Assembly (NCBI RefSeq): GCF_011089885.1
Contig: NZ_JAANBD010000023.1
Location: forward strand, 186,001-250,000
DNA: 64,000 bases
Direction: 5' to 3'
Source of the DNA: Thioalkalivibrio sp. XN279
GTDB taxonomy: Bacteria; Pseudomonadota; Gammaproteobacteria; Steroidobacterales; XN24
Shown: positions 10,252 to 47,986 of the stretch, one piece after another
Layout: each line of letters starts with the position of its first letter
How positions within the stretch are numbered: the stretch's first letter is position 1
Notes under the pieces: generated by a model
Database searches by the model: none
What the model was told of the DNA's origin: nothing
The model's input: only the letters and a program-made list of their open reading frames with translations
Position numbers and translations under genes: made by a program

Positions 10252-10309
10252 GGGCGGATTTTAGGTGGCTTATAGTGTCCCTGCACCCGCCACGAACGAG
10301 CCGCTCGCC

Positions 10310-23168: not shown

Positions 23169-23194
23169 GTATTTGGCTGCTCGTGTGATTTCGG

Positions 23195-23623: not shown

Positions 23624-23650
23624 CCGGTTGAGAGAGAGGGAATATCTGTC

Positions 23651-28289: not shown

Positions 28290-28338
28290 ATCTCGCAGCC
28301 TCCGTTACGAAACGCGTAGCCATGTTCCTCGGCGGTGG

Positions 28339-30270
28339 CTACTCCTGGTTCCGCCCCGCCCTCAAGAGCTGTCGCGCGGCATTTAGGTCGATTTTGAATT
28401 TGTAACCCTGAGCCTCAAGAAGGGCCAGAAGGTTCTGACCATTCAATAGGGTAAGCGGCTTGCCGTTAGCGAACTCGAATGCGTCACGACCATAGTTGCT
28501 AGTTGTTACGAGGATACCTTTCATTGCACCCTCGTTTAGCACAGTCCCATATAGATCGCGGACCGCGCTCACGTCGACTGTGTGCGCGTATCGTTTGGCT
28601 TGAATGACGATTTTCCCGCCAGTTAGCGGGTCTGGATCGAAAATGATCGCGTCGACACCGCGGTCGCGACTCGCCTGGGTGACACGGACTTCGGCTCCAT
28701 TTCCGGAGAACTTCCGTTCGAAGAGTTCTCTAATTAGATGCTCGAAGTCCTGCCAGTCCATAGTTGCGAGGTTTTCGTCGCCGACAGAATCCAGCACCTC
28801 TCGTGAGTCCACGAGCCTCCTGTCGCTTTTGTCGAGTTGGATGACTGGTTGTACTGGTACAAGTTCATGGATTTTCGAGGCGGAAATCCCCTTGAAGCTT
28901 CTGAAGCACTTCTGGGGATCAACTTTGTGGAGGACGATCTGTTTCAGTGTCTCTGGGGGCGCCGCGACAGAGAGGATGACGTCGGATCGTCGCTGGCCGG
29001 TGGCAGAATCGTCAGAAACGACGAATCCATTGATCGCGACGAGAGAAACTGCGCTCGATTCATCGACCCAAGCGGTTTCCCAGAGAAGTCGCAAGGCGAT
29101 GAGGTATGTCATCGACTCTGCGAATTGTTTAGCCTCTGCTTTATTGGCCGATACGGTCTTGCCTCCTCGCTTTAGCTCCCTCCACTTAAGGACCGACAGG
29201 CGCGGAATGTTGGGCAACTGGTAATCGATTAATAGTACTGACTGGTCCGAATCATAATGAACCTCGTAATTCCGCGGACACCAACCTGGTAGTGGTATCG
29301 CATCTAGATTCGCTCGGAAATAGTCCTCGACGCTACTGGGCTTGCGTTGGCGATACTTCTCACGCAGGCATTGGAAGCGCTCCCGGTCGGACTGTATTTG
29401 GGTATCCCATTCGGTCTTCAGTCTTGACCAAGTCTCGCGGAGTTCCTGACGTGCCTTCTCATACTCGTGTCTTGCATAATCCCAGAAGGCCTTTCGATCA
29501 GTATTGGCCAATTGGGCCCACCGGTTATAGGCGGACACGGCTTCCGCTTGTTCGTCGATCTCAGCAATTCGTTTCTTCCACTCCGCGTACTTTTCGGTGA
29601 GGTCGCGGGCCCGCGCCTCGCGCGTCGAGCTGGACGTCATTAAGGCGAGCATCTCCGAGATGGAAGGAGGATCGCTGTCTTTGGTTGGCGGCGGTGGGCG
29701 GTCGGGCGCCTGCTTTGGCGCTATCGCTTCGGTTGGAACAATTGGGAACTCTTCGAATTGAGGTGGGGGAACGGGAAACTCTGGGGCCTCAGATAGCGCT
29801 ACATCAATCCGATGCCGAGATGCGGTCTCGATCGAGTCGAGGAAAGCTTGATAGTCTGACAAGAAAGCCTGGTTGGACGTGGAGGCGTTGGGATCAGTGG
29901 CTGTTCCACCTCTATCACCTAGGACGTTCGGTCCGAATGGGCTCCTCCAGCGGGGGTGAATATCTGTCGCTTTCCCATTTATGAGTTTTTGCTCCCAAAG
30001 TTTGACCGGGCGCGGTGGCGCGTGGTCCCAGCGAAGAGCGGTTTTCTTCCAAGCGCACGGGACTTTGAAACTCTCGGCGATCTCAGCTCGAAGCGGCCCG
30101 AAGGTGGATAGCACGTTTCGGAAGCGCTTGAGTCGCCACGAATCCGAATAAAACTCCGCTTGCCAGAACTTTTCCAGCTCTTTGGCTAGTCTGCGAGCCT
30201 CGTAAGGTGTTTCCGCCTCTATTTCTCGTCGGCGTTGGGAAAATGCGCACGACGCGATCGCCTTCGCCAT
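28339..30270 (-). CDS. Mrr-type (type IV) restriction endonuclease with coiled-coil arm
   Basis: A 643-residue protein from ATG 30270, which has GAGGG seven bases upstream; a GTG at 30429 would add 53 less convincing residues. Residues about 220-350 are rich in charged helices (AEWKKRIAEIDEQAEAVSAY and later RQELRETWSRLKTEWDTQ), probably a coiled coil. The C-terminal 150 residues hold the Mrr_cat nuclease: MDWQDFEHLIRELFERKFSG, RDRGVDAIIFDPDPL, KIVIQAKRY and GILVTTSNYG. Mrr enzymes cut modified DNA or act under stress. It leads a two-gene operon. Confidence 0.87.
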   Translation of the reverse strand: MAKAIASCAFSQRRREIEAETPYEARRLAKELEKFWQAEFYSDSWRLKRFRNVLSTFGPLRAEIAESFKVPCAWKKTALRWDHAPPRPVKLWEQKLINGKATDIHPRWRSPFGPNVLGDRGGTATDPNASTSNQAFLSDYQAFLDSIETASRHRIDVALSEAPEFPVPPPQFEEFPIVPTEAIAPKQAPDRPPPPTKDSDPPSISEMLALMTSSSTREARARDLTEKYAEWKKRIAEIDEQAEAVSAYNRWAQLANTDRKAFWDYARHEYEKARQELRETWSRLKTEWDTQIQSDRERFQCLREKYRQRKPSSVEDYFRANLDAIPLPGWCPRNYEVHYDSDQSVLLIDYQLPNIPRLSVLKWRELKRGGKTVSANKAEAKQFAESMTYLIALRLLWETAWVDESSAVSLVAINGFVVSDDSATGQRRSDVILSVAAPPETLKQIVLHKVDPQKCFRSFKGISASKIHELVPVQPVIQLDKSDRRLVDSREVLDSVGDENLATMDWQDFEHLIRELFERKFSGNGAEVRVTQASRDRGVDAIIFDPDPLTGGKIVIQAKRYAHTVDVSAVRDLYGTVLNEGAMKGILVTTSNYGRDAFEFANGKPLTLLNGQNLLALLEAQGYKFKIDLNAARQLLRAGRNQE

Positions 30271-30670
30271 TACCGTCCCTCGGCTGTTGGTGAAGATACT
30301 CCCTTGCGCGTAGATTACCGGAGAAAAAGCGTCACGGTATCTTGCCCGGTAAGCTTGCCTATTTGAAGGCACCTCATCAGCGCAATGAGGAACCGGGGCA
30401 AGCTTCTGTCTCGAACGCGCGCGTGACACGAGGGGCTTCGAGCTAGGGTGCGGAGCTGCTTAGAGCGGCGAAGGGTTCAAGCCGCCCTCGCGGGCCGGCC
30501 ATTTCCGGCCGAAGTGATCGACGACTCTGGAGGTCCAGAAGCGTCGGCCATGCAAGAGCGTCCCCAACATTAGTGCCGCAGACCAAGAGGCATTGATACC
30601 GTCGTGATTCGTCAACATTCAGGCTCGGTCATCGGATAGCCGGGTCTCGCCGTTGCGTCTCCGGTTCAGC

Positions 30671-31655: not shown

Positions 31656-32105
31656 TCAGTTTTCTGGGATCTCCATCAAGACGCTCTTCGACAAGAGGCA
31701 ATCTTCGACTTTCGGAAGATTCTTCTCACAGTCACCCAGAGTCCTCAGTGCACACTCCCAGATAATGAGGATGCGAATTCCGCGATCCAAAAGGGCGGAC
31801 TTGTTCTGTTCGTCTCTCAGAACGTTGGCAGAGAATTTTGCTTCCCAGAAGCTGCGATTCTGCTTCGGGGTGTAGGCAAGCTTGCAGCCTCGATGTCTAT
31901 GCCAGTAACAGCCATTGACGAAAACTGCAGCATTAAATTTGGGCAGCCACAGGTCCGGGGTGCCTGGCAGCTTCTTGTTGTGCAGTCGGAATCGAAAGCC
32001 GGCTCTGTGCAGATAACTTCGCACGATCTTCTCGGGCTTCGTGTTCTTGGCCCGAATCAAAGACATAACTTCGCTGCGCTTCTTGGTTGTAAAAACGTCA
32101 GTCAT
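31656..32105 (-). CDS. vsr: very short patch repair endonuclease (Vsr), second copy
   Basis: A 149-residue Vsr: MSLIRAKNTKPEKIVRSYLH, LPGTPDLWLPKFNAAVFVNG (catalytic Asp in TPDLW), CYWHRHRGC and RSFWEAKFSANVLRD. It differs clearly from the Vsr at 23195. It is divergent from the helicase-DrmA operon, and its likely partner is the second C5-methyltransferase at 41512, about 9 kb away in the same locus. Confidence 0.9.
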   Translation of the reverse strand: MTDVFTTKKRSEVMSLIRAKNTKPEKIVRSYLHRAGFRFRLHNKKLPGTPDLWLPKFNAAVFVNGCYWHRHRGCKLAYTPKQNRSFWEAKFSANVLRDEQNKSALLDRGIRILIIWECALRTLGDCEKNLPKVEDCLLSKSVLMEIPEN

Positions 32106-32373
32106 AGAAATGGCTGGTCCGTCTGCTCAGTAGTATCCACGCTTGTATTTTCCCGCCGGTTCTCCAAGCCGAAACTTGCAGAGGCAAAAGACGAACCAAC
32201 GCCATGGACAGAATGCGGTCCTTTCGTCATGCGGTCCTGTTCGCCCGGATTCCCGGCCAGCCTCTGGGAGCCGGGCGTGGCGCGACTTTCAAAGGGTAAC
32301 AAGAAAGAGAAGCTGGGAACGGTTCGGGCAAGGGTCGGCCACGCATTTTCAATTGGCAGGAACGGAGCTCGCT

Positions 32374-34377
32374 GTGGCCAATAATCCATCCATCACAACT
32401 TCCATGCGGCTGACGCCGGACCAGGCTGAGATAGCTGAAGCCCCACCGGGCAAGCGAGTCTTGGTTCTTGCAGGACCTGGAACCGGCAAGACCGAGGTTC
32501 TGGCGCGGCGGCTTGCACACCTTTTGAGTGTCGGAATAAGACCCGCTCAGATTCTCGTACTCTCTTTCTCTCGGAATGCGGTGAAGAACGTTGCGGACCG
32601 GATTCGGAGACTGCCGGACGTAGACGAACTGTCGCTCTTGGAGCTGCGGCATGTAGTTGTCCGGACGTTTGATTCGTGGTCTTTCCGAGTGCTTCGGAAA
32701 TGCGGCGAGTCTGCCGAGGAGCTGCTATCAGGAACGCATGAAAGCAACATAGCCAGCCTCGTCCAGAGGCTGCGCGATGAGCAAAGGGACGAAGTCTCCG
32801 GGCATCTGAAGCACATCCGGCATGTCATCGTAGATGAGTTGCAGGATCTTGCCGGCTGGAGGGGTGAATTGGTTGTCGAATTGCTGAAGCTTGTCTGTCC
32901 GCCCGGAGGCAACGGGGCTGGCTTCACTTTGCTCGGAGACCCGGCGCAGGCGATTTACGGTTTCAGTCTCAGACTGAACCAAGAAAACGCAAGCGTGTTC
33001 ACGGCCCAGGATTTGCTCCATCGCGTGAGAGGCATGTACGGGCAGGAGCTCGACGAAAGATGTCTCATCAGCAACTTCCGATCGATGCAGGCAATCGCCA
33101 GAACGGTTGAAAAGGCACGGGCGATTCTGCTCGGCTCCGATTCTTCGGAGCAAAAGCTCGAGAAGCTCGCGAGAATCATCAACGCGTCTCCAGCTGTTGA
33201 GCTCAAAGATGTGATGGACGACGACAGCCTTCGCGGTGAGCGAACAAAGCTCGCGATTCTGTGCCAGACGAATGGCCAGGCGCTGAAAATTGCAGACAGT
33301 CTTTACGGCCGCTCAGAAGATCCACCCAAAATTCCGATTGTGTTGGCGGCGGGATCACCGACCAAATCGGTGCCCGCATGGATCGGTGCGACGCTGGGTC
33401 AATTCTCTGCCGACGTGCTTACCAAGAATACATTCTCAAGAATATACGAATTGGTGTATGGCGAGAATGCTGAAATGGAGAGTGGCTACCGAGTGCCGAG
33501 TTTCGACGCAGCGTGGGAGCTTCTCAAGACTGCGGCGCCGTCGTTACGAGGACAGGAGTCAATCAGCATCGCAACTCTGCGTGAAAGATTGCAGTGGCCA
33601 GACCTCCTGCCGGATGACGAGGGGGTGCTGAAGTCATCGATTGAGATCACGACGGTCCATCAATCGAAGGGCCTTGAGTACGACCTCGTGAATATTGTTC
33701 GGGAAGAACGGAATGAAGTGCGTGATGCGGGCCATCTAAACGAAGGTGGCTTGCTGGAGGCGGCAAACGTCCTGTTCGTAGCGCTTAGTCGTGCGGGAGA
33801 GTCATTCGAGCGCCTTGAAGGAGGTGGCAACAACAGGATACGAAAGGCAAGTTTCGGGCAGAACCAGCGAAACAGATGGTGTGAATGGTGGGGATCCGGT
33901 AGAGGGTGCCAGGTGGAAATCGGTTTGCCTGGCGACGTGTCACAGCCGAGTTTCGTATCAACAGTCTGCTTCGATTCCAATAAAGAGGCCCGGGCCTCTC
34001 AGGCTTGGCTCGCAAAGAGCGCCGAGCTGATTCGTGGCAGAAAGGTCGTCTTGGTCAAGAGCGTAGTCGAAGGTGCCAGGAACCAGTTCATATACAAGAT
34101 CTACTTGCAGCAAGACGGGGAACCGAATCGGCTCCTTGGATTAACAAGATCACAGCTCACATTCGATTTGCTCTCCGTCTTCAAGATTTTCGGAAATGGT
34201 GCGAAGTTTGTGCTCCCATCGAGAATCTTCAACCTGAGGATTTCTGACGTAATCAGCATGTCCGGTTCGGGAGAGCAGCTGTCGCAAATACACGAACCTT
34301 GGCGAAAAAGTGGTCTCTGGTGCGGCATACGCATACATGGACTGGGATATTTCAAGCCCAAAAGAAGGCGCGCCTGA
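32374..34377 (+). CDS. UvrD-like superfamily 1 helicase
   Basis: A 667-residue SF1 helicase. Motifs: Q-motif region LTPDQAEIAEAP, Walker A LAGPGTGKTEVLARRL near residue 32, Walker B VIVDELQDLAG near 150, motif III LLGDPAQAIYGF, a late motif TVHQSKGLEYDLV near 427 and motif VI FVALSRA near 468. The GTG at 32374 is chosen because CGGAG lies seven bases before it; ATG 32404 is the alternative. It ends 20 bases before DrmA and likely heads that operon. UvrD-like helicases are not standard DISARM parts. Confidence 0.87.
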   Translation: MANNPSITTSMRLTPDQAEIAEAPPGKRVLVLAGPGTGKTEVLARRLAHLLSVGIRPAQILVLSFSRNAVKNVADRIRRLPDVDELSLLELRHVVVRTFDSWSFRVLRKCGESAEELLSGTHESNIASLVQRLRDEQRDEVSGHLKHIRHVIVDELQDLAGWRGELVVELLKLVCPPGGNGAGFTLLGDPAQAIYGFSLRLNQENASVFTAQDLLHRVRGMYGQELDERCLISNFRSMQAIARTVEKARAILLGSDSSEQKLEKLARIINASPAVELKDVMDDDSLRGERTKLAILCQTNGQALKIADSLYGRSEDPPKIPIVLAAGSPTKSVPAWIGATLGQFSADVLTKNTFSRIYELVYGENAEMESGYRVPSFDAAWELLKTAAPSLRGQESISIATLRERLQWPDLLPDDEGVLKSSIEITTVHQSKGLEYDLVNIVREERNEVRDAGHLNEGGLLEAANVLFVALSRAGESFERLEGGGNNRIRKASFGQNQRNRWCEWWGSGRGCQVEIGLPGDVSQPSFVSTVCFDSNKEARASQAWLAKSAELIRGRKVVLVKSVVEGARNQFIYKIYLQQDGEPNRLLGLTRSQLTFDLLSVFKIFGNGAKFVLPSRIFNLRISDVISMSGSGEQLSQIHEPWRKSGLWCGIRIHGLGYFKPKRRRA

Positions 34378-34397
34378 ACAATCATAGGTAGAAAGCC

Positions 34398-37300
34398 ATG
34401 TCGGAAAGTGAGCAGGAAGTCATACGGTCAAGGCTCGTAGCAGAGCTGTCCAAGGTCCTATGCGGTCCAGGCGAGCCAGAGGAGATTCTGGCTTCCAGTC
34501 CTTCCGATACCTACCTGACGGGGATTCTCTGGCCTAAGGAGACGGGCTTCGGCCCTGACGAAGATGAGGGATTGGATAAGTCCGCAGAAGGCAGGGATGA
34601 CGACGCCATCGATGCTGCAGTACCCGGATATCGAGCTATTCGGCCGTGTTCTTTAGGCCTCACCTTCTCGGTACCAAAAGGGACGCCGGTCCGCCTCACA
34701 ACAGCGTCTACAGCCCGCTATTTGCCAGAGGAGATCCTCTCGGACCAACCAGAGGTCGAAGCCCTTGACGTCCCCGATGAGGATGTTGCCGATGGCGATG
34801 TAAAGCCGCCGGCAGTCGCTGACGTTGAACAACGCCAGCCCGACGAGGACGCCGCAGAGGAACGCCGCGCCCGCCCAATCTACAGGTGGCGTCGGAAACA
34901 ACTCAACTATGTACTTGATATCAACCCGCGGGACGAATCGAAAGAATGGAAGGTAAGTCGTTTTCAGCTGCCCGATGGAACCGAGTTAACCGACCCTGAT
35001 CTCGCAGTTCATGTCAGGTACAGGGTGAGCGAAGAACATGTCACCATCACAGCAACACTTATCAACCTGGCTCCCAATGAGACATTGGGAGGGCTTCCGC
35101 TCGATGCGAACTATCTGTTTCAGGCCGGCGTCAAGGTAATAAACGTTGGTGACGGGTTGCCCCTGCAGGTCATGCCACGAAAATTGTTAATTACCGCTGA
35201 CGATCAGGATTCGCGTTCAAATACGTTGATATACCGAGACGCTCGTGAGTTTGCAGTAGGTCACGGCGTCTCTGCGACGTGGCCGGCCTCGGAGATCGCG
35301 GCCGACTGGGTCGCAACGACGTGGCTTCCGACAGCAGTCGTCAAGAGTACGAGTTTCAAAGGCCACGAATCTCTTGCCCAAATGAGGCGGCGGTCGCTAA
35401 ATCCTTTCGCAGCTGAATGGCTCGGAAAGAACGAGAACAGGCCTGCTGTCGTCAAAGCAATGCACGAGTTCTGCGATATCTATGAGCGCTGGATCACGGG
35501 GTACGTCGCTTCGCGGGTCGGCGAGTTCGACGGACTTCTCGCTGAAGCTGCGGCGTACAATCGCAGCCGCTGTGATGAGGCTGCGGTGAGAATGCGCCGT
35601 GGTGCCGAGGCCCTCGAATCAAACGATACCGTCTGGCGAGCCTTCATTCTGGCGAATCAGGCGCTCGACGCGCAGGCGCGCTATGAGTCAAAGGGAGCTA
35701 GAGCGGGGCCACTGGTCTGGCGACCATTCCAGCTCGCGTTCATTCTGCTCGTGATTCCTGGAATCGCCGATCCACAGGATAAGGATCGGGAGACCATGGA
35801 TCTCCTCTGGTTTCCCACCGGCGGCGGTAAGACCGAGGCGTACTTGGGACTTACTGCTTTCTCGATATTCCATACAAGACTTACGAGTCGGTATCGAAGA
35901 GAGCAGGGAGGCACTGACGTTCTGATGCGCTATACGCTCAGGCTGCTGACGGTTCAGCAGTTCCAGAGAGCAGCTGCATTGATCACATCCTGCGAGTCTT
36001 TAAGACTCGAGAACCCCGAAGAGCTCGGGACAGCACCCATTGAACTCGGGCTCTACGTTGGTGATGAGTCGACTCCCAACAAGTTGAACAAAGCTCGGGA
36101 GAAACTTGACGAGGAGCGGAGCGGGTCAAGACCTCGATCCACTCCGCGGCAACTGCTCAATTGTCCCCTCTGCAACACGGAGCTGGCGGTAAGCGATTAC
36201 TCGGTGCATGAGGAAGATGTCCGCTTGGATATCAAGTGTCACTCTGATCAGTGCGAGTGGTATGGGCGGCGCCTTCCAATACACACGACGGACGAGACGA
36301 TCTTCAAGAGCCCGCCTGCATTGTTAATCGGAACGGTCGATAAGTTCGCCCAGCTGCCCAGAAAGGCGGAACTCGGTCGAATATTTGGACTCGATACGCC
36401 GAATCGACCGGAACTCATAATTCAGGATGAGCTGCATCTGATATCCGGTCCACTCGGAACGGTAACGGGACTTTACGAATCTGCGATCGATCTGTTGTGT
36501 TCCATTTCGGGGGCGCTGCCCAAGGTAATTGGATCGACAGCAACGATCGGTCAAGCTGAAGCTCAGGTTCTCTCGCTCTTCAACCGTTCAGTACTTCAGT
36601 TTCCGCCGCCCGGAATCGATTCATCGGATTCCTTTTTCGCCGTCAGAGACGACATTGCCCCGGACCGTCTGTACCTTGGCGTCTCGTCCGCCGGAAGAAG
36701 TCCCAAGTTCGCATTGCAGGCAGTATTTGGAGCAGCGATGCAGTCAGTCCAGTCGGAGCTTGAGCTTGGCTCCTGGAGTGACGACGATATCGATCCATAT
36801 TGGACGACCGTGGCCTATTTCAACAGCCTCCGGGAGCTCGGAGGTGCGATTGTGATGACGCTCGATGACGTCCCACGCACCATGCAATTCATCGCAGGTC
36901 GACAAGGAACCTCCGTCCGGCCGATGCAGCAGGAACCGATGGAACTCAGCAGCCGAATTCCATCCAGCAAGATCCCCGAGGAGCTGAACAAGCTGAACAT
37001 CAAGCTCGGCGGCGATCCATGGAGCGGCGAGCCAGTTGACGCAGTACTAGCGAGTAACATGATCTCCGTGGGCGTCGATGTTCCGAGGTTGGGGCTGATG
37101 GTAGTCAACGGTCAGCCGAAGTCCACTGCGGAGTACATTCAGGCGACCAGTCGCGTCGGACGAGGAATTCCTGGCCTTGTCTGCACGGTCCTGAATTTCG
37201 GGCGGCCACGAGATCTTGCGCACTTCGAGCATTTCCAGAACTACCACGCGGCGCTTTATCGAAACGTCGAAGCCACAAGCGTGACTCCTTGGGCGCCTAG

Positions 37301-37745
37301 GGCGAGAGACAAGGCACTACATGCAATTCTGATCGCCACATTGAGGCAGTTAACTCCCGGGCTCCGCAAGGATGACGAAGCCAGAGAGTTCAATCCTGAC
37401 CATCCGTTGGTCAGACAGGTTGTAGATTTCCTTGTCGAACGGTCCCGCCTGGCCTCGAATGGCGTGGAGGAGTCCGAAACTCGTGACGAACTGGATCGTG
37501 TTGTTCAACGATGGGCAATGCGCGCAGCTGAACAGAGGGCAATCGGAAAGAAGCTCCGCTACTGGGAGGCCCCTGCTCCCCCCGGCCGCGTGTCGCCGCA
37601 TCTCATGAGAGATGCCGAGAAGATGCGGATAAGCGATACACCGGCGTGGCCAACGCCGAACTCCATGCGGGAAATCGAGCCATCGACCGCTTTTGTTCTC
37701 AAAGTATTCCACGACGCGGCGGGTGGTTCGGAGGGAGATCAATGA
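34398..37745 (+). CDS. drmA: DrmA-like DISARM helicase
   Basis: A 1115-residue protein. Walker A is in [20 protein letters not shown] near residue 468; the DrmA-typical [20 protein letters not shown] near 672 is a Walker B-like motif; a four-Cys cluster (NCPLCNTEL and CHSDQCEW) lies near 590-620. The helicase C-terminal part has [20 protein letters not shown] and ATSRVGRG near 915. In DISARM, DrmA and DrmB form the core complex that acts on unmethylated or entering phage DNA. It overlaps DrmB by ATGA. Confidence 0.92.
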   Translation: [1115 protein letters not shown]

Positions 37746-39586
37746 CTGATGTGCCATGGCTGGGGAAGATTCGGCGTTCGCAGGTCATCACGACCTACGG
37801 AATCGGATCAATAGTCGATCTTGAGCCCGGCTCGTTCGTTCCTCTGGGCTTGGAAGAGTGGGAGAAGCAGACTCGACTTGCCAGAAAGTCGTCGATCATC
37901 ATTTATGAAGCAAGGCTGCAAGCTCAACTCGATGTCAATGAGTTTCGGATGGCGCCGATTCTCGAGGAGGTGAAAGGCCGGCAGAATCTCGTGAAGTCCG
38001 ACTATGCCATCCCGGTATACCGGTTTCCACGATGGTTGGAATGTCCCAAATGTCACAGGCTGGGTACCGAGAACCGACCATTCGAGGCGGATGCAGACGG
38101 GCGCCAGTTGCGATGTTCCGCATGCAATCAAAAGGTTAATCCCGTGCGTTTCGTTCAGGCATGTGCCCAAGGCCACTTGGCGGACTTCCCTTGGATATGG
38201 TGGGCCCACAAGAACCGCGAATTGGGTGTCTGTGAAAACCCCGTGCTCTACCTCAGATCGCATGGCAAGAGTGCCGCGCTTGCAGACTTGTTCGTACAGT
38301 GCATGAACCCTAGCTGCAACGCTACCAAGTCCATGGGAGATGCTTTCAAGAAGTCGGCGCTAGGTGGATTGAAGTGCCAAGGTAGAAGAATTTGGCTTCT
38401 GGATAATGAGCCATGTGAGAAAGAAGTCCGTACCCTGCAACGCGGCGCTTCCAATGTTCATTTTCCGGCCGTGGTGAGCGCTTTATCGATTCCGCCGATC
38501 TCGGAACCCGTTCAGCAGTTGATTGACGAGCACTGGTCGGTTTATCAAGCGCTGCCAGAAGAGAGTCTGGGGCATGTGCTCGCGGGATCCGCCCAAGAGC
38601 TTGGGATTCCGGTCCAAGTTCTGCTCAGTGCCTGCCGCCGCAGGAAAGCCTTGGAGCGCGGCGATGATTCGGAAGACCGTAATCCCGATCTTCGATTTTT
38701 AGAATACGCGGCTCTGTCGGGTTCCACTGAGGATATTCCCGCCATAGGTGGCTATGTATCGCAGTTTCAGAACGTCGCATGCGATCCACCGCCTATGATC
38801 CAGAAGTGGTTCGATAGCATCGGGGCCGTATCGAGGCTGCGCGAAGTCAGGGCGATGATCGGGTTTTCACGAATCGAGCCTCAACCAGTTTCAATCCGGA
38901 ATGCCCAGCAGCTGCTGCGGGATGGCAGACTTGCGCCGTTGGCGAAAACCAATCGAAATTGGTTTCCTGCTGCAGAGATTCGAGGGGAGGGGATTTTCCT
39001 TCGCTTCCGGAATGAAGAGATCGAGTCCTGGCTTGCGTGTAATCCAGAGATATCGGTGCGAGCAGCTGCAATTGATCGCTGGACCAAGCAGGTTGCTGCG
39101 GAACGAGGGTACGCGCCGGAGTACGATATAACGCCGCGCGTGCTACTCGTTCATTCGTTTGCACACGTCATGATCCGCCGCCTTTCTGTTGAATGCGGAT
39201 ACTCATCTGCTGCGCTTCGCGAGCGCCTCTACATAAAGGAAGACGACGAGGAGGGTCCTTCGATGCATGGCGTGCTCATCTATACGGGGACCCCCGACTC
39301 GGAAGGTAGCCTCGGGGGTCTCGTTCGACTGGCGGACCCAACAAGGCTCGCACCTCTCGTTGTACGAGCACTGAAGGAAGCCATGTGGTGTGGCAGCGAT
39401 CCGGTCTGCTTGGAAACGGAACCGGATGTTGCCGGAGAACGGATCAGTGGGGCTGCATGCCATTGCTGTCTGCTCGTTCCGGAAACAGCCTGTGAGAAGT
39501 TCAACAAGGAATTGGACAGATCCATGCTGATCGGCCATGCAGAAGGCAGATGGAAAGGCTACTTCGATGGTATTGAGAAAGGCTGA
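37742..39586 (+). CDS. drmB: DrmB-like DUF1998 protein
   Basis: A 614-residue protein beginning with the DrmB pattern IRRSQVITTYGIGSIVDLEP. Two Cys pairs (CPKCHRLG and CSACNQK) form a probable zinc site near residues 100-130. The C-terminal DUF1998 region includes LLVHSFAHVMIRRLSVECGY, SSAALRERLY and the Cys-rich end GAACHCCLLVPETACEKFN. DrmB partners DrmA in DISARM. Start ATG 37742 overlaps the drmA stop. Confidence 0.92.
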   Translation: MTDVPWLGKIRRSQVITTYGIGSIVDLEPGSFVPLGLEEWEKQTRLARKSSIIIYEARLQAQLDVNEFRMAPILEEVKGRQNLVKSDYAIPVYRFPRWLECPKCHRLGTENRPFEADADGRQLRCSACNQKVNPVRFVQACAQGHLADFPWIWWAHKNRELGVCENPVLYLRSHGKSAALADLFVQCMNPSCNATKSMGDAFKKSALGGLKCQGRRIWLLDNEPCEKEVRTLQRGASNVHFPAVVSALSIPPISEPVQQLIDEHWSVYQALPEESLGHVLAGSAQELGIPVQVLLSACRRRKALERGDDSEDRNPDLRFLEYAALSGSTEDIPAIGGYVSQFQNVACDPPPMIQKWFDSIGAVSRLREVRAMIGFSRIEPQPVSIRNAQQLLRDGRLAPLAKTNRNWFPAAEIRGEGIFLRFRNEEIESWLACNPEISVRAAAIDRWTKQVAAERGYAPEYDITPRVLLVHSFAHVMIRRLSVECGYSSAALRERLYIKEDDEEGPSMHGVLIYTGTPDSEGSLGGLVRLADPTRLAPLVVRALKEAMWCGSDPVCLETEPDVAGERISGAACHCCLLVPETACEKFNKELDRSMLIGHAEGRWKGYFDGIEKG

Positions 39587-39595
39587 GGGACGGGC

Positions 39596-41323
39596 GTGGC
39601 AAAGCTGATTCCGCAAATCACTAAAGATTGTCCGAGAAGCGAGCGACTGGTATTCGAAAGCCTAGGCCGCCAGTTGCCGGATGAATGGATCGTGCTGCAT
39701 TCGTTGGAGCTTTCAAGGCACCCGCTCAAGATGTGGGGCGAGACCGATATCGTCATTATTTCCACCAAGGGCCTATTCGTGATTGAGGTCAAGGGCGGGA
39801 CGGTCTCGTGCCGGGATGGAGAGTGGACTATCACCTCACCGAATGGACGGGAATCGTATACCAAGGCGGAAAGCCCGTGGGCTCAGGCGTCCGGAGCGGC
39901 AGCCACTATTCGCAACAGGCTCTATGACAACGAGCGGTTTCGGGGATGCCTTGTGGGGTATGGAGTGGCCTTGCCATACGAGACTTTCACCGCTGAAAGC
40001 GAGGAGATCATTCAGGAGGTCCTGTGGGATCGTCGACACCGGCGAGAAGATCTCGCTCTCTATGTCGGGCGCCTGGCCAGATTCTGGCGTGAAAGGCATG
40101 AAGTAACCAGGGAAAGATCGCCGCGGGAGATAAAGAAGGAGGACATACAGGAGATCCGTCGGCTTCTTCGCCCAGACGTCGAGTCTCACATGAGTCTGGG
40201 CAGCTACTTGAACGCACTGCACGCAGAGCTCATTGAACTGACGGCCACTCAAGCAAAGATATTGAAAGGGATGAAGGCGAATCCAAAGACAATTGTGAGC
40301 GGATTGGCTGGAACGGGAAAGACTTTGCTGGCATTTGACAAGGCCAAGTATTGCGCTGAGGAGTGCCGCAAGTCAGTGCTTTACGTCTGCTTCAACAAGT
40401 TGCTCGCAAGGCATATAACAGAGAATATTCCAGAAAGCCTTAGAGATCTGATCACGGTCGCAAATTTGCATTCCTATTATCGGAGCGTAATCAGCGATGC
40501 AGGGAATCTTGAACTGCTGAGTGCTGCCGGGGGCGACGAACGCAAACTTTACGGTACCGTAATGCCGGAAGCATTTGCCGATTCCGTCCTCGAATTGGAT
40601 CTCAAGCCATTCGACGTCCTGATCGTGGACGAGGCCCAGGACATCCTTACGCCGTCCCACCTCGATGCAATCGACGTTATCGTCGAAGGCGGGATCGACT
40701 TCGGCGAATGGCATCTCTTTATGGATCCTAAACAAGACATTTACGGGGAGCTGTCGACTGAGGCGCTGGAGCGCCTCCAAGATGTCGGCTACGCGAGTTA
40801 TGAACTGACGGTTAACTGTAGAAATACTCGTCCGGTTGCCGTTGAGACTTCAGTAATCGCGGGATTCGAATGTGCTATCGAGGGAGCCATTGATGGGCCA
40901 GCATGTAAGACCGTTACTTATAGAGATACTAGCGATTTTGAGCAAAAGATAACTCAAGAGGTCGAGCGCCTGCTTGAGCGGGATCTCGATCCGACAGATA
41001 TCATTATCCTCAGCAGTAGACGGAAGAGCGGATCGCTTCTTCGGAACATGTCACGACTGGCGGGTCAGCCGATCGTCGACCTGACGGAGGATGTCCCAAA
41101 CGGAGACCACATCGCCTTCTGCACCATTCACGCGTTCAAGGGCCTTGAGAGAAAGTGCGTGATTGCGATCGATATACAAGGATTGGAGGACGAAGCCAAG
41201 GCCCTTCTTCATTATGCAGGGCTGTCCAGGGCGCAATTTCTGCTTACAACGTTCCTTCAGTCCGATACCAAAGTTGAGTACGAAAGGCGCCTGAGAGAGT
41301 TTGGTGCGCGTCTGGTCAGTTGA
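39596..41323 (+). CDS. NERD-domain nuclease fused to SF1 helicase
   Basis: A 575-residue protein. Residues 1-160 form a NERD nuclease-related domain (ETDIVIISTKGLFVIEVKGG, with the Asp...E-V-K catalytic pattern). The rest is an SF1 helicase: Walker A VSGLAGTGKTLLAFDKA near residue 238, Walker B VLIVDEAQDI near 343, AFCTIHAFKGLERKCVIAID near 507 and GLSRAQFLL near 547. GTG start with GAGGGA ahead, nine bases after the drmB stop, so it belongs to that operon. It is not a usual DISARM gene. Confidence 0.88.
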   Translation: MAKLIPQITKDCPRSERLVFESLGRQLPDEWIVLHSLELSRHPLKMWGETDIVIISTKGLFVIEVKGGTVSCRDGEWTITSPNGRESYTKAESPWAQASGAAATIRNRLYDNERFRGCLVGYGVALPYETFTAESEEIIQEVLWDRRHRREDLALYVGRLARFWRERHEVTRERSPREIKKEDIQEIRRLLRPDVESHMSLGSYLNALHAELIELTATQAKILKGMKANPKTIVSGLAGTGKTLLAFDKAKYCAEECRKSVLYVCFNKLLARHITENIPESLRDLITVANLHSYYRSVISDAGNLELLSAAGGDERKLYGTVMPEAFADSVLELDLKPFDVLIVDEAQDILTPSHLDAIDVIVEGGIDFGEWHLFMDPKQDIYGELSTEALERLQDVGYASYELTVNCRNTRPVAVETSVIAGFECAIEGAIDGPACKTVTYRDTSDFEQKITQEVERLLERDLDPTDIIILSSRRKSGSLLRNMSRLAGQPIVDLTEDVPNGDHIAFCTIHAFKGLERKCVIAIDIQGLEDEAKALLHYAGLSRAQFLLTTFLQSDTKVEYERRLREFGARLVS

Positions 41324-41511
41324 ATGGCCGGGCGGGAGAAGAGCTGAATTTGATCTAGTAACTTTCACTCGGAGTCGCTCTTACATGCATTGGTATGTTT
41401 GCGACGGTGAGCAGCCCCTCGAACACCGCTCTGCGGTCTGAAGGCAGAGATGATGGATCGCTCGTCATCGGAAGACCCCCTAACCTGATCGTCAACAAGG
41501 ACTTTTGGTCG

Positions 41512-43044
41512 ATGCGATCCGATATAGGCGTCATAGATTTGTTTGCCGGACCCGGCGGCTTGGGCGAAGGTATTTCGGCATTCAGTCGAGACGGTGTGCA
41601 CAAACCGTTCAAGATCCGAATGTCTGTTGAGATGGAGCCGAGTGCGCACCGCACGCTCCAGCTCAGAGCGTTCACGCGCCAGTTTCCCGAGCTTCCGAGA
41701 GACTATTACGACTACATCCGCGGAGTGATTTCGCGGGAAACACTGTTTGAAAGGTATCCAGATGAGGCCAATAGGGCCATCGAAGAAACTCTTGGCTCGC
41801 CTCGTGAGTTGGGAGAAAGTGCAGATGACGAACTCATCTATACCCGATTGAGATCACTCAAGCGGAAGCATGAGGGTCCTTGGGTTGTGATCGGAGGTCC
41901 CCCGTGCCAAGCGTATTCACTAGTTGGTCGCGCCCGCAATCGTGGCGTAAAGGACTATCGCCCGGAACAGGACAAGCGACATTTCCTGTATGCCGAGTAC
42001 CTCCGGGTTCTCCAGACCATGCGGCCCGAAGTCTTTGTCATGGAGAATGTAAAGGGCATCCTGTCGTCCTCGATTGAGAATCAGCGGATATTCCCTAGCC
42101 TGCTGGTGGACTTGAGGTGCCCTGATCGCGCTTTGGGGAAACGTACGACGCGGCAGGGCCGTTACAGGATCTATTCTCTGGTAACAGGCCACGAGGTCGG
42201 TGAAGCCGATACTTCGGGTTCCGATTGTATTATTCGCAGCGAGAATTACGGTGTGCCGCAGACCAGGCATCGGGTGATCCTGCTTGGCGTGCGCGAGGAT
42301 ATCTCTCTCTCGCCATCGGTGCTTCAAGAGTCTCCGAGACAATGGACCGTCGGGGAAATGTTGGCAGACCTTCCCGACGTTCGCAGTGGTATTTCCAAGC
42401 AACTAGATTCGCATGAAACTTGGGCTTCAGAGATCGCTGCACAGGCGAAAATCGTCTCGAAAGAGCTCGCACGGCAAGGGTTGAGTTGCGACGTCGTAGA
42501 TCGAGGGCTGAAGAAAGCGCATCGACTGAGGACTCGTGGGGGGCAGTTCGTTCCGGGAAATAAGCAGTTCAAGGGTCCGGATAATCTCCGGAGATGGCTG
42601 TTAGATGAAGAAATCGCGGGTTTCGTGAATCACGAGTCTAAGGCACATATGCCTACGGATCTTGGTCGCTACATGTACTGCGCAAGCTTCGCTTATCAGA
42701 CGGAGGGCCTCTCTCCTAGGTCCAGTGAATTTCCTGAAATATTCGCGCCGAACCACCGTAGCTGGGAGACTGGAAAGTTCGCTGACCGATTCAAAGTACA
42801 GGCCCGAAACGCGCCGTCGAGTACGATTGTCAGCCACATCGCAAAAGACGGACACTACTTTATACATCCCGATCCAGGTCAGTGCCGCAGTCTCACAGTT
42901 CGGGAGGCGGCCCGGCTGCAGACATTTCCGGACAACTATTTCTTCGAAGGCAATCGCACCCAGCAGTATGTGCAGGTCGGTAACGCGGTTCCGCCATACC
43001 TAGCGCAGCAGATTGGCCAGATTGTCTATGAATTGATGGCTTAG
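41512..43044 (+). CDS. drmMII: DNA cytosine-5 methyltransferase, DrmMII-like
   Basis: A 510-residue C5-methyltransferase: motif I IDLFAGPGGLGEG near residue 8, motif IV GGPPCQAYSLVGRARNRG with catalytic Cys near 128, motif VI MENVKG, motif VIII VPQTRHR, motif IX-X REAARLQTFPD and VGNAVPPYLA. The long insertion before motif IV is usual for this subgroup. ATG 41512 is favoured (AAGGA ten bases ahead, motif I follows); an in-frame ATG at 41395 is possible. In class 2 DISARM such an enzyme marks self DNA. Confidence 0.87.
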   Translation: MRSDIGVIDLFAGPGGLGEGISAFSRDGVHKPFKIRMSVEMEPSAHRTLQLRAFTRQFPELPRDYYDYIRGVISRETLFERYPDEANRAIEETLGSPRELGESADDELIYTRLRSLKRKHEGPWVVIGGPPCQAYSLVGRARNRGVKDYRPEQDKRHFLYAEYLRVLQTMRPEVFVMENVKGILSSSIENQRIFPSLLVDLRCPDRALGKRTTRQGRYRIYSLVTGHEVGEADTSGSDCIIRSENYGVPQTRHRVILLGVREDISLSPSVLQESPRQWTVGEMLADLPDVRSGISKQLDSHETWASEIAAQAKIVSKELARQGLSCDVVDRGLKKAHRLRTRGGQFVPGNKQFKGPDNLRRWLLDEEIAGFVNHESKAHMPTDLGRYMYCASFAYQTEGLSPRSSEFPEIFAPNHRSWETGKFADRFKVQARNAPSSTIVSHIAKDGHYFIHPDPGQCRSLTVREAARLQTFPDNYFFEGNRTQQYVQVGNAVPPYLAQQIGQIVYELMA

Positions 43045-43097
43045 GCTCGAGCTTGTTCAATTCTGGTTTCGGAGTGGATGCTTAAACGAGCAGGGCT

Positions 43098-44828
43098 TTA
43101 AACGTCCTCTTTCCTTACAAACGCACCTCCCAGCAGCTCCGGGATATCGCGGCGTTTCAAATCCGGAATCTCACTGGGAGGAATAGGCTCCCCGATATCA
43201 AAGTGCCGGTATGCGAGGCCATTCGCGACAGCCAGCCGGTGAAACATCGCCGGAGCGAGGCCAGACGCATAGAACTGGTCCGGCATTTGCAAATCAATGT
43301 ACCTGAACCCCTGTTTTGCTGGCGTAAACGTGCTTTCGACCAGCTTCAGTGACCGCAAGTAGACGGGCTCGAGCGATCCGCCGCCGCAGATAAATACCGG
43401 GAGTCCGTTTTCCCACTGGTACGCGTCCTGGATCCTGTTTGCTTTCGTCTCAAGAAGAATCTGGGCGCACCCGCTCCGAACCATCGAGATAAAGCCACTA
43501 TCCACTTCGGGGCGCCTTTCAGCAGACAGGCTTGGCGCCAGTGTATTCAGGTCAGGCAAGCTCGACGTCATTCCCGCCCCGCCAAAGAGGGCTTTGTTTA
43601 CGATCTCGTCCCGATCAGAGTCCTTGCCAAGGATGGAATCCAGGGCGTTCTGTCTGTAGCTGAGGAGTCGGGCAGTGCCAAGCGAATACACTTTCGTCAG
43701 GAAGATCGCGTAAGCGTCTCCATCTGGTCTGTCGACCAGGTTAAACGTCGCCAGATCGACGGTGCCGGCGCCCACATCCATTATGAAGTGGAGTCCAGCC
43801 TTACGTATTTTTGATCTCGCGTAGCCGGACACCTCCGCGACGATCTCCGGGAAGGCGTGTACGAAATCCCTCGAGATATGGTGCCTTGGGCGCCACGCCT
43901 GTTCATCTTCGGCGGCCAGCCAGGAATCGACCTCGGCCAGCGCTGTCCTGACCTCGCAAAGCGTGATGTCAGTGGGACCCTGCTCGGCGAGAATCCAGCC
44001 GGCGAGAAGAGCGATACGAAAGGGGGTAGCGGAGTGCGCGACGTGTAACTGGTTGGTTGGTATCCCGACGTTCAGGTGCCACGTGACGGCGGTCTTCTCA
44101 AGTCGGCGCCCGAGCTGCTGTTCGATCCACCAGAGGGTATGAGTGAGGACAAGAGCAAGATACGCAGTGGTCATTTCTAGAGCAGTTGCTTCCGGAAATC
44201 GTTCCTCCAGCCGAAAAAGCGTGTCGCCGAATTTGACCAGGCGGGTCTTGAAGTCCCAGATGCTGAGCCCGGCGGGCTCCAGCCTCAATGTGCCGGTTTG
44301 CGAGATCGATATCCGGCTCGGGCATAGGTAAGCCGAGTCGAAGCCGGATAATTCACCAATAGGTACACCAAAAGCCTCGTCGCGAATCGCGTCTCGAACG
44401 ACGATTTTCGTGCAAGAGGTTCCAAGGTCAATGCCAATGACAAGATCGGTTTCCGGTCCGCTTCCGTACTTCAGCCGGATCGACTTCCGCGCCCCGCGTG
44501 GCCCTGTGTGGCGTGGAGCTTCAGGACGCTCCCGGAGCATCTCGAAATGGCAGGGCGCTATTTCGGGGAGGACGATCTCTGCTTTGGAACTGCCCTTTAG
44601 GTGCGGGTGGCGGGAATCCGGCCGGGCCTCTCTGGCCTGCTCAAGGCGCTCCCGGGCCGGTTCGACCTGATCCGCGCTGCGGCGGACTGTTTCTATGGGT
44701 CGTTTCGCCTCCTCTTTCGCAGTATCTTTCCGGGAGTCTTTCTTGCTGCCGAAGAGCAATGCCCTGAGTTTGTCGCCCAGGCTGTTGTGTCCAAAGAGCC
44801 CCTCATCCCTTCTGCCGCGCTTTCCCAT
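43098..44828 (-). CDS. actin/Hsp70-fold ATPase in the DISARM-like locus
   Basis: A 576-residue protein. The first 125 residues are charged and probably disordered. The ATPase core follows: phosphate-1 loop VIGIDLGTSCTKIVVRD near 130, phosphate-2 loop MDVGAGTVDLATF near 350 and adenosine loop VFICGGGSLEPVY near 475. The connecting subdomains do not closely match DnaK, MreB or StbA. It follows the SNF2 gene by 29 bases on the same strand and converges on the methyltransferase. A chaperone-like or filament-forming role in defence is open. Confidence 0.82.
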   Translation of the reverse strand: MGKRGRRDEGLFGHNSLGDKLRALLFGSKKDSRKDTAKEEAKRPIETVRRSADQVEPARERLEQAREARPDSRHPHLKGSSKAEIVLPEIAPCHFEMLRERPEAPRHTGPRGARKSIRLKYGSGPETDLVIGIDLGTSCTKIVVRDAIRDEAFGVPIGELSGFDSAYLCPSRISISQTGTLRLEPAGLSIWDFKTRLVKFGDTLFRLEERFPEATALEMTTAYLALVLTHTLWWIEQQLGRRLEKTAVTWHLNVGIPTNQLHVAHSATPFRIALLAGWILAEQGPTDITLCEVRTALAEVDSWLAAEDEQAWRPRHHISRDFVHAFPEIVAEVSGYARSKIRKAGLHFIMDVGAGTVDLATFNLVDRPDGDAYAIFLTKVYSLGTARLLSYRQNALDSILGKDSDRDEIVNKALFGGAGMTSSLPDLNTLAPSLSAERRPEVDSGFISMVRSGCAQILLETKANRIQDAYQWENGLPVFICGGGSLEPVYLRSLKLVESTFTPAKQGFRYIDLQMPDQFYASGLAPAMFHRLAVANGLAYRHFDIGEPIPPSEIPDLKRRDIPELLGGAFVRKEDV

Positions 44829-44857
44829 CCTTGGTCTCCAAAATCAGCAATGGCCTG

Positions 44858-47800
44858 TCACCGAATGTTGATCAGCCCCAGGCAAACATCAGAACGCTCG
44901 TGACGCGTGTTGCCCGCGGATTCGAGCTCTGAGAGCCTTTGCGCCATTCGTGCACTGAGGCGGTTCATCCTTCCTTCTGTCGCGGGGATCAGTCTTGTTC
45001 GACCTTTCTCCTCAAGAGAGGCCCGAACCCTTTGCAGAGACTCCATTTGCCGCTGCAGGTGCTTCCGGACCGCAGCTTTCTGTAATCGGACCCGGTCACT
45101 ATTCTCAGCAGCAATACGCCCGGCGAAGGAATCGTATTCCGCGAAGGACCGGAGCATAAGTTGCTCAACCGCCCGGGCCGCAGTGTCATATTCAATGCCT
45201 GCCCCGGCATCAATCCCGTCAGTTCCGTGCATTGCCGCGCGCGTAACTAGCCACTCTGCGTTATCTGCATCCAACGGCGTCAGCCCGCCGTCGCTGTCAA
45301 TGGCAGCAGCCTGGAACACCAGTTTCTCGATAACACGGAGGCCGGTGAAGGACCATCGACCGACGTAGAAAGGGTAGAGTCCGGCCTGCAATCGGGGAAT
45401 CGAACTGGTGCGGACCTCGACCAGCACGGCAGGGTAGAAGGGGTTGGCTTCTGCACCGATGGTGTGACTTGCGAACCGGACCAATGGATGGAACTGGGTT
45501 ATCCACTCTTCTCTCCCGCGTCGCGTCGTGTGCGCCTTGCTGGAAAAGTGAACGGTCGTTGGTTTTGGATTGTTGGAAACCAGCTGGGTGGTTCCCAGCA
45601 GCTTCTTCGCCTTGAGGAACGCTGTAAGGTCTGCCCGCGCCTTCTCCGACAGAGTGACCTGGAATACCAGTTCGCGATTTTCAGCCTGCCTGAAATCGCT
45701 TCCCGGGTACCTGTCATCGATGAAATCCCTGATGTAATTCCAAAGGTCTTCGCCAGTAATCCAGCGGCTCATTTCGCGCGCGGCGCTGACCTGCCTAACA
45801 ATGTAGTCCCCGTGAGCAATCAGGTTTCCGGCTTCTTCCTCGAGTCGTGACTCCTGCAGCTTCCTCGTTTCAAGGGCTTGGGCGGTCTGATCAATCCGTT
45901 GCGCTTCCTGCTCTGGCGTGAGTCGTCCTGATAACAAGTCCATCGTCAGCTGTCGGACTTCTTCTCCGAGGACTTGCTCAAGGCCGCCAAGCGCTTCTTC
46001 GAAAATTCTCAGTCTCTGAAAAAGCCGGTCGTGAATTCTTTCATCGATCGTTCCTGCGTAAAAAAGATTCCAGATGGTTATCCGATCTGCCGCTTGGCCG
46101 ATGCGATCTATTCGACCGATGCGTTGTTCGACCCGCATTGGATTCCACGGAAGATCGTAGTTGATCAGTACTCGTGCGAACTGCAGATCAACACCCTCAC
46201 TGGCTACTTCTGAGGCGAGCAGGATTGAGGTATTCGGATCCCTCGAAAAGTCTTCCAGGATTTCCATCTTCTGCTGGCCGGAATCGCCAGTTAGCAAGAC
46301 CCCGGAAATGCCATCTTCCTGGAGCCTCTGTCTCAGGTAACGCAGGGTCGGTTTGAAGGTTGCAAACAGGATTATCTTCTCTCCCGGGTGCGCCCTGAGG
46401 TGGTCCGAGAGCATGGCCCTCAATCGTGCATACTTGGTATCTGCCTTGCGCAACGCTTTCGGATCGCCAACGTCGGAAATGTGCCGAATCAGAGTCGAGA
46501 CGAGCGGTCCCGGCTGGGCTCTGTCCTCATCGGGCAGTTCGTCCACTCCGTCAAACAGTTCTTCCAAGTCCAGACCGCGTTCATGCCAGTCCGCGACTGC
46601 GGCGGCCATGGAGCTTGATAGCTGGCGCTGGGGCTGCACCAGCAGGAATCCCTCGTGCCCACCCTGCCGCTCAGCATAATCTCGGATTATCTGTGTGACG
46701 GCAGAATATGCTTCAGCCTCAAGCGTCGACATCTCTACGTGCTCTGGCACAGCTTCACGAACGACCTTGCGTTCATGAACATCACGCTTCCGAGTCCTTG
46801 TCACCGCATGGGACAGCAGATTGATTCTCTCGATTTCGGCTGCAAGTTCACTGCGCCTGCCGTGGTCGTGAAACGCCTCATCAGGGGGCGGATGCTGAAC
46901 CAGGTTCGAAATCTGCTGGTTCTCACGCAGGAGGTAGTGAGACCGCGCGTTGGATAAGTTTTCCAGGAAATCCTTCTGCCGCGCACTGCCTTGGAGGATC
47001 GCGTCTCGCAGGTTCAGCAGCGGCGCATTGGCTTGCAGAATGTCATCGAAGACGTCAGGGTTTGAGAACGTATCTTCGTCTACGAGGTTCAGGAGCTCAT
47101 ACAAATCCCGGTTCTTGAGGTGAAGCGGGGTCGCCGACAGGAGCACTATGCCCTCGGAAACCGGTCGGAGAAGTTTGCCAAGACGCGAGGTCATCGTTTC
47201 GGGATTTCTCATGTAGTGCGCTTCGTCAACGACAAGAAGGTCGACCAGCGGCTCATCAAAGGCGCTTTCGTCGAGAAGACGGGCCAAGATCGAGGCGGGA
47301 CTAAGATTCGCGTCATCTCCCCACTGGCGACGCGGTCTAACACCCTGCATGCTGCAGATGGCCGCATAAGATGATTTCTCGCCTTGCCGGACGCGTTTCA
47401 GCAGAGCGGTCAGCTCTTTTGCATCCAGAATGGAGGCTTCAACGCCAAACCTGCGCTCGAGCTCAATCTGCCACTTTTGTTGCAGCATGGCCGGACAAAC
47501 TACCAGCAGCCTGCGGGCGTCGAATCGGGCGCGTAGTTCTGTCCAGATCAGTCCAGCTTCGATGGTCTTTCCGAGACCAACCTCATCCGCAATCAGAATG
47601 CCGTTACTCGGGGATTCCAGGTAACTCAGGACTGGCTTGAACTGATAGGCATAGAAATCCGTATTAGTCGTTTCCATGCTGTAAATCAGGTCGGCGAGGC
47701 GCCCGGTCAGGCGTATGTGAGTCAGGCAACTACGCAAGTCGCGGGCGCGACCAAGGCGGCCCTCGCGGAGAAGCTCGATGGGATCTTGCGGCCCTGCGTC

Positions 47801-47986
47801 AGCGGGTTCAAGGCTGGGCTCTGCGTAGAATGTACTGGTGTCAGGAAATCTTACCTGGTAGTAGAGTTTGCCACCCATTGTCCGCTTGATTCCCGTGAGG
47901 GTGCCGATGCGGGATGGGTCACTCTTCAGTCTTACTTGCGTTCCAGGTTCCACGCAGCGCTCCTGCCAATGGATACGAGCTGACAA
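44858..47986 (-). CDS. SNF2/RapA-type helicase (DrmD-like)
   Basis: A 1042-residue SNF2-family translocase. After a small N-terminal beta domain (PGTQVRLKSDPSRIGTLTGI), Walker A lies in LIADEVGLGKTIEAGL near 131-146, DEAH box in LLVVDEAHYMRNP near 250, VLLSATPLHLKN near 285, and the C-terminal half has FATFKPTLRYLRQRL and RIGRIDRIGQ near 630. Long coiled-coil-like tail. Class 1 DISARM encodes the SNF2 helicase DrmD; whether this is a true DrmD needs a profile search. Confidence 0.87.
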   Translation of the reverse strand: MSARIHWQERCVEPGTQVRLKSDPSRIGTLTGIKRTMGGKLYYQVRFPDTSTFYAEPSLEPADAGPQDPIELLREGRLGRARDLRSCLTHIRLTGRLADLIYSMETTNTDFYAYQFKPVLSYLESPSNGILIADEVGLGKTIEAGLIWTELRARFDARRLLVVCPAMLQQKWQIELERRFGVEASILDAKELTALLKRVRQGEKSSYAAICSMQGVRPRRQWGDDANLSPASILARLLDESAFDEPLVDLLVVDEAHYMRNPETMTSRLGKLLRPVSEGIVLLSATPLHLKNRDLYELLNLVDEDTFSNPDVFDDILQANAPLLNLRDAILQGSARQKDFLENLSNARSHYLLRENQQISNLVQHPPPDEAFHDHGRRSELAAEIERINLLSHAVTRTRKRDVHERKVVREAVPEHVEMSTLEAEAYSAVTQIIRDYAERQGGHEGFLLVQPQRQLSSSMAAAVADWHERGLDLEELFDGVDELPDEDRAQPGPLVSTLIRHISDVGDPKALRKADTKYARLRAMLSDHLRAHPGEKIILFATFKPTLRYLRQRLQEDGISGVLLTGDSGQQKMEILEDFSRDPNTSILLASEVASEGVDLQFARVLINYDLPWNPMRVEQRIGRIDRIGQAADRITIWNLFYAGTIDERIHDRLFQRLRIFEEALGGLEQVLGEEVRQLTMDLLSGRLTPEQEAQRIDQTAQALETRKLQESRLEEEAGNLIAHGDYIVRQVSAAREMSRWITGEDLWNYIRDFIDDRYPGSDFRQAENRELVFQVTLSEKARADLTAFLKAKKLLGTTQLVSNNPKPTTVHFSSKAHTTRRGREEWITQFHPLVRFASHTIGAEANPFYPAVLVEVRTSSIPRLQAGLYPFYVGRWSFTGLRVIEKLVFQAAAIDSDGGLTPLDADNAEWLVTRAAMHGTDGIDAGAGIEYDTAARAVEQLMLRSFAEYDSFAGRIAAENSDRVRLQKAAVRKHLQRQMESLQRVRASLEEKGRTRLIPATEGRMNRLSARMAQRLSELESAGNTRHERSDVCLGLINIR

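Follow-up and report, generated by a model that had tools for sequence, protein, structure and literature searches.

The 64,000-nucleotide stretch of Thioalkalivibrio sp. XN279 analysed here (contig NZ_JAANBD010000023.1, positions 186,001 to 250,000; 'the window') carries a locus made of two modules: a UvrD-DrmA-DrmB-NERD block on the plus strand (32404-41323) and a SNF2-Hsp70 pair on the minus strand. The best explanation, to which we assign a probability of about 0.62, is that these are two adjacent modules directed against mobile elements, a DISARM-related operon and a self-contained SNF2-Hsp70 module. The block is DrmAB-based, probably works like DISARM, and is a widespread relative of that system, apparently one not yet described. 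Both categories were defined in the present analysis, the SNF2-Hsp70 pair as adjacent genes on the same strand with intact active-site motifs. The seven genes, all long intact open frames, are as follows, in window positions:

32404-34377, plus strand: UvrD-like SF1 helicase, 657 aa, first gene of the core block (PF00580, 3.4e-26; start from homologue comparison)
34398-37745, plus strand: DrmA, YprA-family SF2 helicase, 1115 aa (PADLOC DrmA, 6.9e-220)
37742-39586, plus strand: DrmB, DUF1998/MZB zinc-binding partner of DrmA (NCBIfam DrmB_fam; PF09369, MZB)
39596-41323, plus strand: fusion of a NERD (PD-(D/E)XK) nuclease with an SF1 helicase, 575 aa (PF08378, 1.4e-12)
41395-43044, plus strand: C5-cytosine DNA methyltransferase, DrmMII-like, 549 aa (PF00145, 5e-42; PADLOC DrmMII, 4.9e-94)
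43098-44828, minus strand: actin/Hsp70-fold ATPase, 576 aa, second gene of the SNF2-Hsp70 pair (motifs and PDB profile matches)
44858-47986, minus strand: SNF2/RapA-type helicase, DrmD/BrxHII-like, 1042 aa, first gene of the SNF2-Hsp70 pair (PADLOC DrmD, 6.8e-278)

The conservation of the block was measured with a DrmA scan of about 85,000 species genomes, in which an alignment of six UvrD-associated DrmAs was used to collect the 80 nearest loci. These span Pseudomonadota, Actinomycetota, Bacillota, Chloroflexota, Acidobacteria, Balneolia and others. By a strict rule, 57 of the 80 have UvrD immediately before drmA, with L079 as an obvious extra, and NERD directly follows drmB in 21. The complete four-gene order was found at 18 of the 80 genome loci and on four plasmids, the latter (located by tblastn with DrmA) being replicons of Azospirillum, Rhizobium ruizarguesonis, R. 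rhizogenes and Shinella. At seven further loci of the 80, NERD directly precedes drmA, in the place of UvrD. In the window itself, drmAB is flanked by UvrD immediately before it and NERD immediately after it, and DrmC is absent. Since this order around drmAB is kept in unrelated genomes, the point that the first-pass annotation of this DNA had proposed to check, UvrD and NERD are core parts rather than passengers.

The four block proteins also co-vary. Mirror-tree correlations (rho) were 0.82 for DrmA-UvrD (n = 61), 0.73 for DrmA-NERD (n = 25), 0.77 for UvrD-NERD (n = 23) and 0.73 for DrmA-DrmB, values that none of 500 permutations reached. In the DrmA tree, all 62 UvrD-associated DrmAs fall inside one 74-member clade (support 0.98), and the window falls within a 22-member UvrD/NERD clade (support 0.99). 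None of the 63 UvrD loci has DrmC, which occurs at 5 of 26 others (p = 0.0016).

The catalytic motifs of the proteins are intact. Walker A/B and motif VI of UvrD are kept in about 60 of 63 homologues, and in its AlphaFold2 model (pLDDT 89) residues 1-480 align with UvrD/PcrA/Rep at a Z of about 23; residues 480-657 are a conserved, family-specific C-terminal part that the fold search hardly covered. DrmB scores 518 bits against the NCBIfam DrmB_fam cut-off of 240 (PADLOC 2.2e-84). All 26 homologues of the NERD protein keep its nuclease residues D51, E64 and K66 and its Walker A/B residues, and this nuclease-helicase is the probable nuclease effector replacing DrmC. In DISARM itself DrmC is dispensable and often missing, and how the DNA is degraded under these conditions is described as a mystery (PMC9142583). 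A conserved, co-varying NERD gene directly behind drmB, at loci where DrmC is always absent, offers a testable answer to that question for a large branch of DrmAB systems.

The methyltransferase behaves differently from the block proteins in the mirror-tree analysis, with rho of 0.07 with DrmA and 0.10 with NERD, that is, without co-variation. A methyltransferase lies within 2.5 kb of the block at 10 of 22 other four-gene loci against 5 of 41 other UvrD loci (Fisher p = 0.003 with the window included). Relatives 38-46% identical to that of the window stand downstream on the opposite strand in L019, L028, L033, L036 and L086, and upstream on the same strand in L025; in L026 and L027 other C5 families stand beside the block. 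The methyltransferase is thus a frequent but exchangeable neighbour. Its best PADLOC match is DrmMII, a profile that generic C5 methyltransferases match too.

The first-pass annotation, made from the letters alone, had described positions 31656-47986 as a mixed-class DISARM-like system. The genes it named are borne out by strong profile matches and long open frames, and in the case of the 576-aa protein by actin/Hsp70 motifs. Its start is placed too early: 31656-32105 is a spurious minus-strand frame, and UvrD begins at the ATG at 32404. PADLOC requires DrmA, DrmB, DrmC, DrmD and DrmMI for DISARM type I, and DrmA, DrmB, DrmC, DrmE and DrmMII for type II (PMC9252829). Ten window genes (26742-47986) were scanned by profile, and among these there was no match to DrmC, DrmE or an adenine (N6/N4) methyltransferase, in agreement with the annotation on the absence of the first two. 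Set against type I, these genes include DrmA and DrmB and lack DrmC and DrmMI; set against type II, they include DrmMII and lack DrmE and DrmC. DrmA scores 901 bits with NCBIfam DrmAS, slightly below the equivalog cut-off of 950. On DrmD the two databases differ: the SNF2 protein matches the PADLOC profile at 6.8e-278 and scores 411 bits with NCBIfam DrmD against a cut-off of 610. Given these absences and scores, the block belongs to neither DISARM class.

With type II the window shares DrmA, DrmB, a DrmMII-like C5 methyltransferase and the presence of an additional gene just before drmA (that of DrmE in type II, that of UvrD in the window), but type II has DrmC and DrmE where the window has UvrD and the NERD helicase-nuclease. 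With type I it shares DrmA, DrmB and a nearby SNF2 helicase of the DrmD superfamily, but type I has DrmC and an adenine methyltransferase, and the SNF2 protein of the window is of the Hsp70-paired family, below the curated DrmD cut-off. DrmE-family proteins do occupy, in L082, L094 and L099, the slot before drmA that UvrD takes here (NCBIfam NF038316 in L082 and L099). Profile comparison gave no sign that UvrD is a divergent DrmE (hhalign probability 0.6%).

Three other described systems share parts with the window. ARMADA type II (ArmA SNF2, ArmB PglX-like, ArmC YprA, ArmD GajB/UvrD-like; PMC12458937) also combines a YprA-family helicase with UvrD-like and SNF2 helicases and a methyltransferase. 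It is characterized by a PglX-like methyltransferase and a YprA protein with its own OB-CON-DUF1998 region, neither of which the locus has; in the window, DUF1998 is in a separate DrmB, the methyltransferase is of the C5 type, DrmA is of the DISARM type, and UvrD has no RelE domain call. In TALON (YprA, NERD nuclease, TPR-CSD, TBP; PMC12458937) a NERD-family nuclease likewise adjoins a YprA helicase, whereas the window has NERD as a fusion with an SF1 helicase, and genes for TPR-CSD or TBP were not recognised in it. CoCoNuT type III (CnuD Hsp70-like; PMC11090510) also places an Hsp70-fold ATPase in a predicted defence operon, but in that system its companions are McrBC-type proteins with RNA as their predicted target, rather than SNF2 or UvrD-DrmAB. 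A survey of YprA proteins places DrmAB in DISARM with PLD nucleases, its text being silent on UvrD, NERD, Hsp70 and sacsin associations (PMC12458937). In the literature searched, neither UvrD-DrmAB-NERD nor the SNF2-Hsp70 pair is described, nor is a DrmAB linked to Hsp70 or sacsin, an unnamed entry in the supplementary tables of the original DISARM report being possible.

The second module is distinguished by its constancy as a pair. The SNF2 protein matches PADLOC DrmD over its full length, and its helicase motifs are invariant in 11 homologues. Searches of Pfam and NCBIfam gave no match to the 576-aa protein, and PADLOC no good one. It has intact actin/Hsp70 motifs (DxGT at 134-137, DxGxxTxD at 351-358, GGG at 482-484), which vary little or not at all among 11 homologues, and all 12 matches of its profile in the PDB are of the actin/Hsp70/sugar-kinase fold, at weak E-values of 0.05-0.6. 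An AlphaFold2 model made without an alignment reached a pLDDT of 34.5 and was not used. The two genes are adjacent at 13 of 13 loci: the relatives found of the Hsp70-fold protein have a SNF2 neighbour in every case, and SNF2 relatives at least about 33% identical over their length always have an Hsp70-fold neighbour. Eleven of the 13 loci are without drmAB, and neither the pair nor the Hsp70 family of the window occurs at any of the 80 nearest DrmA loci. SNF2-Hsp70 is therefore a separable module. In viral contigs a search for the pair returned other SNF2 families only and no Hsp70 relative.

Other partners accompany SNF2 genes elsewhere. In L006, L021 and L022 the SNF2-Hsp70 pair has three further genes in common (clusters c4, c5 and c6, whose L006 members carry the annotations TM0106/RecB-like nuclease, AAA ATPase and restriction endonuclease), possibly forming a five-gene system. 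SNF2 relatives near 30% identity have a sacsin-type (GHKL/Hsp90-like) partner instead of the Hsp70-fold protein; in L109, L110, L111, L114, L115, L214 and L215, SNF2 is joined by a sacsin/GHKL protein of about 1050 aa, an arrangement parallel to the SNF2-Hsp70 pair. In L012, L033, L035, L036, L038 and L039 a divergent pair of SNF2 and a protein of about 1000 aa lies directly upstream of UvrD-DrmA-DrmB. The same protein is present in L011, and in the six loci this SNF2 partner resembled none of the profiles of Hsp70, sacsin and DrmE.

Chaperone-family ATPases are also found beside UvrD-DrmAB itself. In six Firmicutes loci (L046, L058, L060, L085, L088 and L093) a DnaK-like Hsp70 (PF00012, E-values to 4.5e-49) stands directly upstream of UvrD-DrmA-DrmB and itself follows a coiled-coil protein, whose C terminus has a conserved helical motif; these look like an Hsp70-containing DrmAB operon. 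At about 30 loci, mostly in Actinobacteria (L045, L047, L053-L055 and about 25 others), the same position is taken by a fusion of a sacsin-like protein with an SF2 helicase (PADLOC TmtA, about 1590 aa), whose junction with UvrD is mostly overlapping or within about 100 nt. Finally, in L218, from another class of the same phylum, methyltransferase, UvrD, DrmA, DrmB, NERD, SNF2 and Hsp70 genes lie co-directionally on one contig in a 19-kb seven-gene stretch, with an Mrr-like gene between NERD and SNF2. Because its DrmA and SNF2 are 41% and 33% identical to those of the window, L218 is no recent copy of the window locus. An insertion with IstA/IstB-like frames (8508-10360) splits its drmB.

Chaperone-family ATPases thus recur beside UvrD-DrmAB in three distinct forms, and the chaperone link that had been suspected for this locus has gained support. 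This recurrence before or beside UvrD-DrmAB suggests that chaperone-fold switches have a part, so far unrecognised, in immunity directed at DNA. A tentative extension, which we consider unlikely, is a widespread DrmAB immunity class with such an ATPase as a working part, a nucleotide switch that would assemble UvrD-DrmAB-NERD on foreign DNA or release it; its forms would be the DnaK-like Hsp70 of Firmicutes, the sacsin/Hsp90-type helicase fusion of Actinobacteria and the Hsp70-fold protein with SNF2 of the window.

The strongest competitor to two adjacent modules is a single seven-gene system in which SNF2-Hsp70 assembles, recruits or licenses the UvrD-DrmAB-NERD core. L218, which has all seven genes despite its distance from the window, argues for it, as do the DnaK-like and TmtA genes directly upstream of UvrD-DrmAB. 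We nevertheless consider it unlikely, given the distribution of the pair: most SNF2-Hsp70 loci have no drmAB, and the Hsp70 family of the window is missing from the nearest DrmA loci. The two window operons moreover converge and are therefore not co-transcribed, and the drmB of L218 is broken. The reading first put forward is thus supported for the UvrD and NERD genes around drmAB and not for SNF2-Hsp70, which proved separable on the annotation's own terms; L218 and the six DnaK-like loci keep a larger system alive. Several points weigh against the two-module reading. Since all seven genes stand together in L218, it may be too strict to divide them into two modules. The 80 loci were seeded on UvrD-type DrmAs, and 57 of 80 is no census. 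Co-variation is partly expected from the shared ancestry of related genomes, and the link of the methyltransferase to the block is statistical only. An antiviral function, the assignment of what each enzyme cuts and a marking role for the methyltransferase are what we infer from these data.

Two further explanations are far less probable. In one, the locus is an ordinary DISARM, decayed or mosaic, in which a type I DrmD met a type II methyltransferase, DrmC and DrmE were lost, and unrelated helicases were inserted by chance. PADLOC does label DrmA, DrmB, DrmD and DrmMII in the window, and class mixing does occur: L083 (1326-12574) is a genuine mixture, SNF2-DrmA-DrmB-DrmC-C5 methyltransferase. 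However, all genes of the window are intact, UvrD and NERD keep their positions and co-vary with DrmA, and the SNF2 family pairs with Hsp70 and not with drmAB. The recurrence of the block in unrelated replicons largely refutes the mosaic, and the mixed-class assignment first made for this locus is not supported; database labels such as DrmD and DrmMII can make two neighbouring modules resemble one mixed-class system. The other explanation, equally improbable, is a DNA-repair or replication-conflict operon with no part in defence. The YprA and UvrD families do include repair helicases (YprA/MrfA; PMC12458937), but the distribution is patchy (DrmA at E ≤ 1e-80 in 8 of 369 members of the class), the block is carried on plasmids, and it lies among restriction-modification neighbours in a low-GC defence island.

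If the two modules are as proposed, their operation can be sketched from DISARM, in which DrmAB binds single-stranded DNA with 5' overhangs and methylation lowers its activity (PMC9142583). As in the solved DISARM complex, DrmAB would be loaded onto incoming DNA at single-stranded or 5'-overhang ends and would then translocate, with the UvrD helicase helping to unwind. The NERD nuclease-helicase would cut or degrade the DNA, the job of DrmC in classical DISARM, and host DNA would be spared through marking by the adjacent, interchangeable C5 methyltransferase. SNF2-Hsp70 would consist of an ATPase switch and a translocase of double-stranded DNA, existing alone or with other nucleases and occasionally with DrmAB. 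Independent action of the pair is favoured by default, and there is a real chance that it cooperates as an ATP-driven remodeller of the complex.

Within each operon the genes are tightly packed. Intergenic gaps are 20 nt (UvrD-DrmA), 9 nt (DrmB-NERD), 71 nt (NERD-methyltransferase) and 29 nt (SNF2-Hsp70), and drmB starts at the ATG at 37742, behind a GGAGGGAG ribosome-binding site, with a 4-nt overlap with drmA. Promoter and terminator scans gave fewer sites than shuffled sequences, with nothing above chance, and are thus uninformative. Between about 22 and 48 kb the G+C content is 53-60%, compared with 64-73% to the left of this tract, which is rich in restriction and defence genes. It includes a NaeI-type restriction-modification set at 22017-24520 (C5 methyltransferase, PF00145; Vsr mismatch endonuclease; NaeI-family endonuclease), as well as Mrr and HNH genes. 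Divergent from UvrD is a minus-strand pair at 26742-30429, consisting of an Mrr-type restriction endonuclease (28339-30429; PADLOC mREase_IV, 1.2e-47) and a 515-aa protein with no family match. A gene for a PD-(D/E)XK nuclease of the REase-ARP family lies outside the low-GC island, at 58396-59217.

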